Shown here: one piece after another, positions 5,447-31,356 of the stretch | Layout: every line of letters begins with the position of its first letter | Numbering within the stretch: position 1 is the first letter of the stretch | Assembly: GCF_944390595.1 (NCBI RefSeq) | Contig: NZ_CALXRN010000239.1 | Span: 1 to 34,492 of the forward strand | DNA from: an uncultured Brachyspira sp. | Lineage (GTDB): Bacteria; Spirochaetota; Brachyspiria; Brachyspirales; Brachyspiraceae | Direction: 5' to 3' | Length of the DNA: 34,492 bases | Notes under the pieces: generated by a model | What the model was told of the DNA's origin: nothing | What the model saw: only the letters and a program-made list of their open reading frames with translations | Databases searched by the model: none | Made by a program: the position numbers and the translations under genes

Positions 5447-5474
5447 AATATTACTTCCGAAAATATTTGTAATG

Positions 5475-5521
5475 AAGGGCGTTGGTTTTCTTTCCCAGAA
5501 AGAAACCGACACTCTTTTTTT
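5475..5521 (+). promoter_or_regulatory. rimP leader hairpin, candidate attenuator
   Basis: Between promoter and start codon lies an inverted repeat of about 19 pairs. The 5' arm starts AAGGGCGTTGGTTT, the tip is CTTTC-CCA-GAAAG, and the 3' arm is AAACCGACACTCTT, with one C/A mismatch and one bulged T. Seven T residues follow at 5515-5521. This is the form of an intrinsic terminator placed before the first gene of its own operon. Structured leaders before rimP (ylxS) are known in several bacterial groups. NusA affects termination, so the hairpin could let the operon sense NusA supply; that last step is inference. Confidence 0.75.
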
Positions 5522-5537
5522 ATTTGTGGGAAATATA

Positions 5538-6098
5538 ATGAATAAAGATAGAAGACCTCAAAAGCAAAAAGAATATGGCAGAGAGCCGAAGAAAAAAAAA
5601 TTAAAAAAAGAAAAAACTAAAAAAGCAGATACAAATATAATAGATGAAGTATTATTATTTAATTGTATAAATAATAAATTAGAAGATAAGAATATATATT
5701 TATTGGATTTAAAAGTAAGATGTATTTCTGATAATAAAAAAGTTTATGCAGTTATTTATAAAAAGAAAGAGAGTGTATCTCATACCCATTGTATAGAAAC
5801 TACAAGATTAATTCAGGAAGCTATTAAATCAAACGGCTATGATGAGGGAGATTACACCATTACAGTTTCTTCTGCTGGGTTTAGATGGAAGTTTAATGAT
5901 AGGTATGAATTATTTGAAGATATGCCTATAAAAATTAAATATAAAGAAGGCGAGGGTTTTACTACGGCTTATGCTGTTTTAAAAGAAGCTAAGGATGATT
6001 ATATTATTGTCAGTATAACTGATGAAGATAATATTATTAATGAAACAGATATAAAAATATTAAAAAGTGATATTATAAAAGCAAGATTAAATTGTTAA
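5538..6098 (+). CDS. rimP: Ribosome maturation factor RimP
   Basis: RimP assists maturation of the 30S ribosomal subunit. The 186-residue protein has a very basic N-terminal extension of about 35 residues (runs of KKKKLKKEKTKK). The RimP core follows, with the family landmark YTITVSSAGFRWKF (V-S-S-x-G) and a C-terminal SH3-like part. I place the start at ATG 5538. The in-frame ATG at 5472 would lie inside the leader hairpin and add unconserved residues. The ribosome-binding site is weak (GGGA, 7 bases upstream). nusA follows after 46 bases, the usual rimP-nusA order. Confidence 0.88.
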   Translation: MNKDRRPQKQKEYGREPKKKKLKKEKTKKADTNIIDEVLLFNCINNKLEDKNIYLLDLKVRCISDNKKVYAVIYKKKESVSHTHCIETTRLIQEAIKSNGYDEGDYTITVSSAGFRWKFNDRYELFEDMPIKIKYKEGEGFTTAYAVLKEAKDDYIIVSITDEDNIINETDIKILKSDIIKARLNC

Positions 6099-6144: not shown

Positions 6145-7623
6145 ATGTTTGAAAACGTTGGAACTTATTTACAGCAGCTTTCTGAAGAGAAGGATATTAG
6201 TATAGAGCTTTTAAAAGAAGTTATAGAATCTACTATGGTATTGGCACTAAAAAAGAAATATGGTAATGATATAAATTTCCATATACATTTTGATAGCAAG
6301 AATAATCCTACTGTATATAAAGGTGCTAACGTTGTGGAAGAAGTTAGAGATGATAAAAAAGAAATATCATTGGAAGATGCTAAAAAATTAGATCAAGATA
6401 TTAATTTAGGCGATGAGGTTTTAATACTCGTTGATCAAGTTGAAGCATTCGGAAGAATAGAAAGTATGGTTGCTAAGACTACATTCTTTCAAAAAATTTC
6501 TGAGCTTGAAAAGAATATTATTTTTAATGAGTTTAAAAGAAGAGAGAATCAGCTTGTAAACGGATATTTCCAAAGAGAAAACAGAGGCAATATCTATGTA
6601 AATTTAGGTAAAACAGAAGGTTTGCTTCTAAAAAAAGATCAATCTCCAAAAGAACATTATACTGCAGGCGATAGAATAAGAGCCTATATCTACAAAGTAG
6701 AAAATGATAAATCAGGTCATCCTACTATATTCCTTACTAGAACAAAAGGTGATTTTATTAAAAAACTTTTTGAACTAGAAATACCGGAAATAGCAGACGG
6801 TACTGTAGAAATAAAAAATATAGTAAGACAGCCGGGATTAAAAATAAAAATAGCTGTTGTATCTAATAAACCGGAAGTTGATCCTATAGGTGCATGTATC
6901 GGACAGAAAGGAATACGTATACAATCTATAATAAAAGAGATAGAAGGCGAAAAAATAGATGTTGTTAAATGGTCTAAAGATATTAGAGAGTATATTGCTG
7001 AGGCTATAACTCCTGCTAAGCCTATTAGAATTATTATTACAGATCCTGAGAAAAAAGATGCTATGATTATAATACCGGATGAGCAACTTTCTCTTGCACT
7101 TGGTAAAAGCGGATTTAATGTAAAACTTGCTTCTCAGCTTACAGGATATCATTTTGACATAAAAACTGAAAGCGATATTAAAGAGAATCCGGAACTGCTT
7201 AAAGATATTGTTCCGCTTAATCAAATATTCTCAGATACTGCAGAAAGCACAGAAGAAAGCAGCAGCGATGAAACAGTTGAAATTGCTGAGTTAGAAAGTA
7301 ATTTGTATTCACTTCAAGGTGTTGATGAATCTATTATTAAAATACTTATAGAAAATAATATCAATTCAATAGAAGAACTGTATAATATGTCTGCTGAGGA
7401 GATAATAGAAAAAACAGGCATAGAGAAGAGTATTGTTGATAATTTGATGCTTATAATGAAAGATGTTGTTGAAATAGTTGAAGCAGGCGAAGATGAATAT
7501 GAAACTACTTCTGAAGAGGTTGTAGAAGAAATAGAAGTTTATGAGTGTCCTAACTGCGGTTCAAGCATAACTGAAGATATGACTAAATGTCCTAAATGCG
7601 GTATTGAGCTTACTTTTGAATAA
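6145..7623 (+). CDS. nusA: Transcription termination/antitermination factor NusA with C-terminal zinc ribbon
   Basis: NusA binds RNA polymerase and nascent RNA and modulates pausing, termination and antitermination. The 492 residues show the N-terminal RNAP-binding domain (1-125), S1 domain (about 135-200), KH1 with GQKG near residue 254 and KH2 with ALGKSGFNVKLA near 318-328. After an acidic linker comes a helix-hairpin-helix-like segment (388-440). The unusual part is the end: after an acidic stretch the protein closes with CPNCG and CPKCG (Cys468, 471, 482, 485), a short zinc ribbon that standard NusA lacks. The ATG at 6145 has GGAGATAATAA upstream. The gene is between rimP and a methyltransferase that starts two bases after its stop. 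infB, which commonly follows nusA, is absent here. Confidence 0.95.
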   Translation: MFENVGTYLQQLSEEKDISIELLKEVIESTMVLALKKKYGNDINFHIHFDSKNNPTVYKGANVVEEVRDDKKEISLEDAKKLDQDINLGDEVLILVDQVEAFGRIESMVAKTTFFQKISELEKNIIFNEFKRRENQLVNGYFQRENRGNIYVNLGKTEGLLLKKDQSPKEHYTAGDRIRAYIYKVENDKSGHPTIFLTRTKGDFIKKLFELEIPEIADGTVEIKNIVRQPGLKIKIAVVSNKPEVDPIGACIGQKGIRIQSIIKEIEGEKIDVVKWSKDIREYIAEAITPAKPIRIIITDPEKKDAMIIIPDEQLSLALGKSGFNVKLASQLTGYHFDIKTESDIKENPELLKDIVPLNQIFSDTAESTEESSSDETVEIAELESNLYSLQGVDESIIKILIENNINSIEELYNMSAEEIIEKTGIEKSIVDNLMLIMKDVVEIVEAGEDEYETTSEEVVEEIEVYECPNCGSSITEDMTKCPKCGIELTFE

Positions 7624-7625
7624 TT

Positions 7626-8522
7626 ATGGTATGTAATATTTGCGGCAGCGATAAGTATACTAAAATCGGATATATAAAAAATATATGGCAGAATGATAAA
7701 GAAGTATATCAATGCTGTAATTGTGCTTTATATTTTATAGAACCTCCAACTGATGAAGAGATATATTTATTATATAAAAATGAATATCATAATAATATAA
7801 AAAATAAATTATTTGAGACAGCTAAAAGCAAAATGCGTTATGCTAGAAGCTTGTCTCAATTTAATTTTATAAAAGATTATATTGATATTAATAATAAAAA
7901 AATATGCGAGATAGGTGCTTTTGACGGCTTGCTTTTAAATATATTTAAAAATAACGGCTGTAATGTATTCGGATATGAGCTTAATGACAATGCTAGAGTT
8001 TATGCTAAAAGTAAATATAATATAGATTTGAAAGCAAATTTCTTAGAAAGCAATGAAAAATATGATATTATAATACTTTCTCATGTTATAGAACATTTCA
8101 AAAATCCAAAAGATATATTATTAAAAATAAAAAGCATGCTTAATAATGACGGATATATTTATATAGAAGTTCCAAATTCTCCAATGCCTAATCAATGCAG
8201 TTATGAAATGCTTATGAGGTATCTCAATACAGAACATACTGTAAATTTTAATATGGATAATATGAAAATGTTTGCTGCCTCAAATGATTTAGATATAATA
8301 GCATGTAAATATAGTAATTATCGTGTTTCAAAGACTAATGAAAAACTAAGGGCTAACATTTTAGAGGGAAGTCTTCCTAGTATATCTAATCTATTTTCAT
8401 TTTTTATGTTTACTTTTAATGTGTTAATATTAACAAACAGAGTTTTTATTAATTATGATGATAACAACAATTTATGGTCTTATGGTGAAAATGTACGAAT
8501 AATAACTAAAAATAAATCATAA
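7626..8522 (+). CDS. Class I SAM-dependent methyltransferase with N-terminal zinc knuckle
   Basis: The 298-residue protein opens with two Cys pairs (CNICG at residues 3-7 and CCNC near 35-38), a metal-binding module often found in front of Methyltransf_23-type enzymes acting on sugars or small molecules. The SAM-binding motif is KICEIGAFDGLLLNIF (E-x-G-x-x-x-G), with an acidic post-motif in FGYELN and motif IV-like YDIIILSHVIEHF. A hydrophobic stretch near residues 258-272 may touch the membrane. The ATG lies two bases after the nusA stop with no separate strong ribosome-binding site, so translation is probably coupled. The substrate is unknown. The terminator at 8514-8548 closes the operon, so this is its last gene. 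Confidence 0.82.
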   Translation: MVCNICGSDKYTKIGYIKNIWQNDKEVYQCCNCALYFIEPPTDEEIYLLYKNEYHNNIKNKLFETAKSKMRYARSLSQFNFIKDYIDINNKKICEIGAFDGLLLNIFKNNGCNVFGYELNDNARVYAKSKYNIDLKANFLESNEKYDIIILSHVIEHFKNPKDILLKIKSMLNNDGYIYIEVPNSPMPNQCSYEMLMRYLNTEHTVNFNMDNMKMFAASNDLDIIACKYSNYRVSKTNEKLRANILEGSLPSISNLFSFFMFTFNVLILTNRVFINYDDNNNLWSYGENVRIITKNKS

Positions 8523-29991: not shown

Positions 29992-31356
29992 ATGATAGAA
30001 AGTAAAGAATATACAGAAATTATTAATATTATAGAGAATCAAAGATGGGATAAACTTAAATATCTGCTGGCAAGTATGCATGCTGCTGAAGTTGTGGATA
30101 TAATACGCATATTAGATAATGATAAAAATAGAAGTATTGTTTTTAGGCTTTTATCTAGGGAAATGTCGGCTTATGTTTTTTCTGAGTTAGAAACAGAAGA
30201 GCAAGAAAAGATTATTGCTTCAATAAATGATAATGAAATTAAAGACCTTATACATGAGATGAGTCCGGATGACAGAACTTCTCTTTTTGAGGAGCTTCCT
30301 GCTGAAATAACAAAAAAGATTTTTTCTCTTATGGGAGAAAAAGATTTAAATATAACAAGGCAATTATTAGGATATCCTGAAGACAGTATAGGACGTATAA
30401 TGACTCCTGAATATATTGATGTTCTTCCGGATTATACCGTAAAACAAACTTTAGAATATATTAGAAAATACGGTAAAGATTCTGAGACTTTTGAAGTTAT
30501 TTATGTTGTAGATAGAAATGAGACTTTATTAGGATATATTTTATTAAAAGATTTATTATTTGCTAAACCTGAAGAAAAAATAGAAGATCTTATGCATACA
30601 GATATAATATATTTGTCTGTATATTCTGACCAAGAAGAAGCAGTTAGGGTAGGAAGAAAATATGATTTGCTTTATATACCTGTAGTTGATTCTAAAAATG
30701 CTTTGATAGGTATTGTTACAATAGATGATATATTTGATATAGCTGAAGAAGAGGATACAGAGGACTTTCATAAATTGGGAGCTATTAGTATAGATGATGA
30801 TTTTGACAGCAATATAAAACAAGCTAATCCTTTAATTCTGTATAAAAGAAGAATATCTTGGCTTTTTATATTGGTATTTGTTAACATAATATCAGGATAT
30901 GTTATAGGATTATTTGAGGAGACTATAAGTCAATATGTTTCTTTAATATTTTTTCTTCCTCTTCTTATAGATAGTGCAGGCAATGCCGGAGCACAGTCAT
31001 CTACTTTAATAATAAGAAGTTTATCTGTTGGCGATGTTAAAAAAAGCGACTGGCTTTTTATGCTTGGAAAGGAGATAGCCGTTTCAAGCATACTTGGACT
31101 TACTATGAGTATTGCTGTCTCTTTAATTGCAGTTTTTAGAGGCGGATTAATGATAGCTTTAGTTGTATCATTATCTATGATATTAGTTGTAGTTATAGGC
31201 AGTTTAATTGGTTTATGTCTTCCTTTTTTATTTGTAAAATTGAAAAAAGATCCTACAACAAGCAGTGTGCCTTTGGTAACTTCTATATGTGATATTAGCG
31301 GTACTGCTATATATTTATTGTTAGCAACTACTATATTAACTAAATTCACTGTTTAA
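29992..31356 (+). CDS. mgtE: Magnesium transporter MgtE
   Basis: MgtE is a homodimeric Mg2+ channel gated by cytoplasmic Mg2+. The 454 residues have the standard order: an N-terminal helical domain (1-130; MSPDDRTSLFEELP), two CBS domains (about 135-260; RIMTPEYIDVLPDYTVKQTL and LYIPVVDSKNALIGIVTIDD) and five membrane helices with the pore signature SAGNAGAQSSTLIIRSL. The acidic EEEDTEDFHKLGA linker belongs to the Mg2+-sensing plug region. The leader is only 128 bases from the divergent pfkA start and has no visible ribosome-binding site before the ATG. Confidence 0.95.
   Translation: MIESKEYTEIINIIENQRWDKLKYLLASMHAAEVVDIIRILDNDKNRSIVFRLLSREMSAYVFSELETEEQEKIIASINDNEIKDLIHEMSPDDRTSLFEELPAEITKKIFSLMGEKDLNITRQLLGYPEDSIGRIMTPEYIDVLPDYTVKQTLEYIRKYGKDSETFEVIYVVDRNETLLGYILLKDLLFAKPEEKIEDLMHTDIIYLSVYSDQEEAVRVGRKYDLLYIPVVDSKNALIGIVTIDDIFDIAEEEDTEDFHKLGAISIDDDFDSNIKQANPLILYKRRISWLFILVFVNIISGYVIGLFEETISQYVSLIFFLPLLIDSAGNAGAQSSTLIIRSLSVGDVKKSDWLFMLGKEIAVSSILGLTMSIAVSLIAVFRGGLMIALVVSLSMILVVVIGSLIGLCLPFLFVKLKKDPTTSSVPLVTSICDISGTAIYLLLATTILTKFTV

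Follow-up and report, generated by a model that had tools for sequence, protein, structure and literature searches.

In NusA, a core elongation factor, no part varies more or is less understood than the C-terminus. The nusA gene of an uncultured Brachyspira sp., read here within a window of 34,492 nucleotides (the whole stretch of DNA that was analysed; contig NZ_CALXRN010000239.1, forward strand), encodes a protein that closes with two cysteine pairs. This raises the question of whether the pairs form a genuine module, how widely such a module occurs and which role it could play at the end of an elongation factor.

A four-cysteine ribbon at the end of NusA

The nusA open reading frame is complete, running from ATG to TAA and encoding 492 aa with the C-terminal end ...EVYECPNCGSSITEDMTKCPKCGIELTFE. 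The product matched the equivalog model TIGR01953 (N-terminal domain, S1, KH and KH in order) with 378.7 bits against a cut-off of 253.4, and this was the only match in the genome. Pfam domains followed the order NusA_N, S1, KH_5, a weak second KH and helix-hairpin-helix (HhH), an acidic linker and Zn_ribbon_3. The KH_NusA_C (24.2 bits) and HHH_5 matches scored under their Pfam cut-offs, which indicates that both domains are divergent. The closest named record was that of B. alvinipulli ATCC 51933, whose tail differs by two visible substitutions. The features of the gene are the following:

6145..7623 (+), nusA gene, 492 aa; TIGR01953, NusA_N, S1 and KH_5; single copy in the genome
6145..7185 (+), NusA core with N-terminal domain, S1, KH1 and KH2 (aa 1-347); Pfam and fold matches to solved NusA structures
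7210..7296 (+), acidic disordered linker 1 (aa 356-384); pLDDT <50; pN/pS 0.42 over aa 348-384
7297..7458 (+), divergent HhH (AR-like) domain (aa 385-438); HHH_5 23.1 bits, below cut-off; fold matches
7468..7530 (+), acidic disordered linker 2 (aa 442-462); pLDDT <50; pN/pS 0.36 over aa 439-460
7546..7623 (+), C-terminal four-Cys ribbon CPNCG-x9-CPKCG-IELTFE (aa 468-492) and stop codon; PF13248 above cut-off; pLDDT about 83; pN/pS 0.044 (aa 464-492)

An earlier note on this DNA had described a four-Cys ribbon closing NusA after an acidic linker, and the reading frame, the cysteine positions (Cys468, 471, 482 and 485, with codons beginning at 7546, 7555, 7588 and 7597), the PF13248 match and the AlphaFold prediction all agree with that description. 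The spacing of ten residues given there is right for the gap between the second and third Cys (GSSITEDMTK) and wrong for the gap between CPNCG and CPKCG, which is nine. PF13248 (Zn_ribbon_3) scored 31.1 bits on the whole protein (cut-off 27), covering all four Cys, and 35.8 bits on the tail alone, and it matched 23 of 28 diverse spirochete NusAs at E<=0.01. The protein has five cysteines in total, and a CxxC-x8-16-CxxC arrangement arose in 1 of 200,000 shuffles of its sequence. The ribbon shares the CPxCG-x9-CPxCG spacing of PF13248, PF13240 (Zn_Ribbon_1) and PF12773 (DZR); these are generic ribbons of many proteins, whereas the acidic flanks and the terminal LxFE are peculiar to the spirochete NusA set.

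AlphaFold (14 sequences) was confident for aa 471-490 (pLDDT 83) and for the HhH domain (about 80), with values under 50 at aa 356-384 and 442-462, that is, two confident domains parted by disorder; the isolated C-terminal fragment gave the same picture. Within the ribbon, which was predicted without metal, strands were placed at 465-467 and 474-476 (pLDDT about 83). Being too short for a fold search, the ribbon could not be matched in this way, so that the search with the C-terminal fragment probes the HhH domain only; its best match was the N-terminal HhH of RAD51, with the E. coli NusA AR domains (1wcl, 6ib8) matching weakly. A search of the PDB with the ribbon sequence returned only weak, generic zinc-finger matches, some of them to Zn-ribbon RNA-binding proteins, including ribosomal ones. 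The solved NusA structures of Thermotoga (1hh2), E. coli (6flq), Planctomyces (4mtn) and Mycobacterium (1k0r) share the N-terminal domain and the S1-KH-KH core with the window NusA; no solved NusA structure matched the ribbon, and the sequence matches end at or before aa 371.

Conservation and distribution of the ribbon

The earlier note had named a lack of the Cys pairs in close relatives as one result that would speak against the module. Both pairs were present in the NusA of all 30 class genomes having one (a thirty-first, 85% complete, gave no NusA match), and the four Cys are invariant across the class. Since the rows of alignment A1 were picked for both CxxC pairs, Cys invariance there is circular, and the class survey and the position of a conserved Phe, described below, were used in its stead. 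Among 24 NusAs of the genus Brachyspira, the ribbon (aa 464-492) displayed a mean identity of 96% and a pN/pS of 0.044, as compared to 0.090 for the S1-KH-KH core, 0.16 for the N-terminal domain, 0.32 for the HhH domain and 0.42 and 0.36 for the two linkers. Synonymous divergence was high and alike across regions (pS 0.42-0.55), therefore the low ratio of the ribbon reflects constraint and not recency, and selection on it within Brachyspira is strong. Class-wide, its pN/pS was 0.170, near that of the core (0.136). An origin of the ribbon by chance or sequencing artefact is ruled out by the shuffles, the 30 class genomes and the pN/pS values. In one single-contig Brachyspira genome (L048, G011:C1:1466966-1467977), nusA lies in two frames with the ribbon end intact, probably owing to a sequencing frameshift.

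The ribbon had also been regarded as specific to this lineage, which proved too narrow because it is spread over much of Spirochaetota. In a phylum survey that sampled 54 family codes, each by at least one genome and some by many, 145 of 207 NusA rows carried the ribbon and 62 did not, and 28 of the 54 codes had at least one ribbon NusA; Brachyspira and Treponema-like genomes are over-represented among the rows, and a number of genomes were counted twice. Ribbon-bearing families include f19 and f37, which we infer to be Treponema-like and Borrelia-like, respectively. A Brachyspira-only origin is ruled out by this survey. On a tree of the NusA core, from which the tail was left out, the ribbon requires at least 8 state changes, against 32.5 with shuffled labels, and apparent losses fall in one large 23-row clade, f48/f42/f54, f51, f11, f10 and f49 g136. 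From this tree, the ribbon looks to have been present early in the phylum and to have been lost several times later; gain versus loss at the phylum base is uncertain because the tree is rooted on two distant outgroups and its deepest branches are long. The 23-row clade takes in the named Spirochaetes MAGs L014-L017, and 'Leptospira-like' as a label for this clade is only a guess.

Several individual tails depart from the common form. NusA of L152 and L153 (f16 g35) carries a tandem pair of ribbons at its end (CPEC...CPNCGIDIYYCPDCG...CSRCGIEIEFE), an apparent duplication. Degenerate ribbons occur in L118 (f3 g40), with CPES in the first pair and an extra Cys beyond the second, and in L050 (f24 g29), which ends inside the second pair (CPS, then stop); either ongoing decay or sequence error may account for them. 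Two genomes of one genus (f10 g13) differ, the ribbon being present in L151 and absent in L081, which would represent a recent loss. The ribbon-less tails of L014 and L191 contain many copies of the hexapeptide ETDKQA.

Outside Spirochaetota, the ribbon was found neither in PDB chains nor in nine plasmid and viral-contig NusA tails, sampled from other phyla or viral contigs (L212 and L215, with no clear NusA end, were left out of the nine), in line with the earlier statement that standard NusA has no such module. Viral contigs gave no match to the window protein and three NusA relatives to A1, none with a ribbon, and in phage records the NusA matches end ahead of the tail. No description of a NusA zinc ribbon was found in the openly accessible papers searched, subscription papers and database domain listings lying outside that scope, for which reason a prior mention is possible. 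The C-terminal ribbon is a real, widespread NusA variant and apparently an undescribed one. In Borrelia, NusA co-purifies with RNA polymerase and has been called unstudied (PMC10319736); an in vitro system with a Borrelia polymerase exists (PMC7237435). With ribbon NusA in roughly half of the spirochete families surveyed, Borrelia-like and Treponema-like families among them, inferences from E. coli or Bacillus would not transfer simply.

Relationship with AR2 and possible roles

Across 56 genus-level representatives, the consensus was acidic-[YF]-x-CPxCGxx[IV]TxDMTxCPxCG[VI]x[LI]xFE-acidic. The Cys positions served to select these representatives, and the Phe, Tyr and acidic positions did not; the Phe six positions past the last Cys was present in 54 of the 56. 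The end of the linker, the ribbon and the tail together have a median net charge of -15 (range -4 to -26), and the loop between the Cys pairs one of -1 (range -4 to +2), with no conserved basic patch.

HhH repeats were counted with a profile built from the surveyed NusA proteins. Two repeats were found in 0 of 145 ribbon NusAs and in 6 of 62 ribbon-less ones (f48 twice, f42, f54, f51 and f11), with a Fisher p of 0.0006 on raw rows; on the tree, this exclusion amounts to just 3-4 independent events, too few for the independent-pairs sign test (p 0.5) to reach significance. In these five families, the second HhH stands at the position of the ribbon, and since the two modules never occur together, the place of the ribbon would, going by these few events, be that of E. 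coli AR2. Most ribbon-less lineages have a single HhH, the second being missing too in the ribbon-less 23-row clade, f10 and f49 g136, and therefore neither module is obligatory. That ribbon and second HhH were exchanged in a few lineages is, on these comparisons, a lead and not proof.

The AR2 domain of E. coli NusA is acidic and C-terminal, binds alpha-CTD, NusG-NTD, SuhB and lambda Q via its last helix (W490, F491), and latches KH1 (PMC7171158). The ribbon resembles it in being C-terminal, strongly acidic and tethered past the first HhH, and it has a conserved Phe-Glu near its end. However, AR2 is a metal-free helical domain of about 65 aa, whereas the ribbon is a 25-aa Cys4 module predicted to consist of short strands and loops, only the domain ahead of it being a helical HhH; because of this difference in fold, the ribbon stands outside the AR2 family. 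Binding to alpha-CTD, NusG or KH1, a property of AR2, would be putative for the ribbon.

In E. coli, NusA is anchored to the flap of RNA polymerase by its N-terminal domain. We hypothesize that the same domain would keep the spirochete protein there, and that the ribbon, a Cys4 module presumably holding Zn(II) at the end of its flexible acidic tether, could then dock onto a protein partner. Candidate partners would be RNA polymerase itself (e.g., through alpha-CTD or some other accessible surface), a further elongation factor or the KH1 of NusA, on whose surface the ribbon would act as an autoinhibitory latch. The ribbon would thereby fill the role of the acidic AR2 by a different fold. To this reading, a metal-stabilised, AR2-like docking module tethered to polymerase-bound NusA, we assign a probability of roughly 45%. 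The module itself, its conservation and spread, the tethered arrangement, the acidity and the exclusion of a second HhH are observed here, whereas the metal (zinc), the role (docking to a protein) and the partner are inferred. In a few lineages, the ribbon is gone and a second copy of the adjacent helical domain stands in its place, so that it probably serves another protein as a docking point, and a functional counterpart of AR2 made from a putative metal ribbon is the simplest reading. The contact with RNA polymerase, RNA or another factor suggested earlier would then be retained for a protein partner, which appears more likely, and not for RNA.

The apparent exchange of ribbon and second HhH offers a natural experiment on the function of the NusA C-terminus. 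It is rather doubtful, on present evidence, that much of the phylum controls elongation through a metal-dependent NusA docking module, counterpart of AR2, which was swapped with a duplicated HhH several times; if true, control through NusA would have two C-terminal designs that can stand in for each other, of which one depends on metal.

The main rival is transcription-translation coupling, in which the ribbon would contact the ribosome or IF2. In Mycoplasma pneumoniae, an extension at the NusA C-terminus contacts ribosomal proteins (PMC8116511), and in E. coli the C-terminal part of NusA makes contact with IF2 (PMC12297416), so lineage-specific extensions do couple elsewhere, and long disordered tethers are suited to bridging. 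By description, the Mycoplasma extension is likewise flexible, lineage-specific and located past the KH domains; it contacts the ribosome, whereas the partner of the spirochete ribbon is only proposed. Nevertheless, those of the weak PDB matches that are ribosomal zinc ribbons belong to RNA-binding proteins, at odds with the strongly acidic spirochete tail, and infB is not beside nusA in the window, the next gene being a methyltransferase. We consider coupling unlikely.

Lower still is the chance that the ribbon is an additional nucleic-acid-binding domain extending the S1-KH-KH surface along the nascent RNA. Small four-Cys ribbons often bind RNA or DNA, as do some proteins among the weak PDB matches, but RNA contact is improbable because nearly all members are acidic throughout ribbon, linker and tail and carry the near-invariant Phe. 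About equally improbable is a redox or metal sensor, whereby zinc supply or CxxC oxidation would switch NusA activity. Many spirochetes are anaerobic or microaerophilic, and the two CxxC pairs are class-invariant; structural ribbons look alike, however, and the conserved Ile, Met, Gly and Phe, together with flanking acidic and aromatic residues, suit a binding surface. A passive cap shielding the disordered tail from proteolysis would agree with a ribbon at the extreme C-terminus past a disordered linker, but is very improbable, since constraint within the genus exceeds that on the RNA-binding core and, in f5, f24 and f44, the ribbon is followed by another acidic stretch and thus does not cap the end there.

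Neighbouring genes in the window

Upstream of nusA, an ORF at the rimP position (5472-6098, +) has a Lys-rich N-terminal extension and a weak RimP_N match (12.6 bits), its position beside nusA being conserved; from its sequence, we take it to be a very divergent RimP. A SAM methyltransferase gene (Methyltransf_23; 7626-8522, +) starts 2 nt past the nusA stop, and in 11 of 13 Brachyspira loci examined the gene immediately after nusA is this methyltransferase. Its product opens with a four-Cys cluster of its own (at 7632, CNICG...CCNC). Another four-Cys motif, CRQCRSTVIYFNNKKFICWRC, lies in an open frame at position 30975 (+) of the window.
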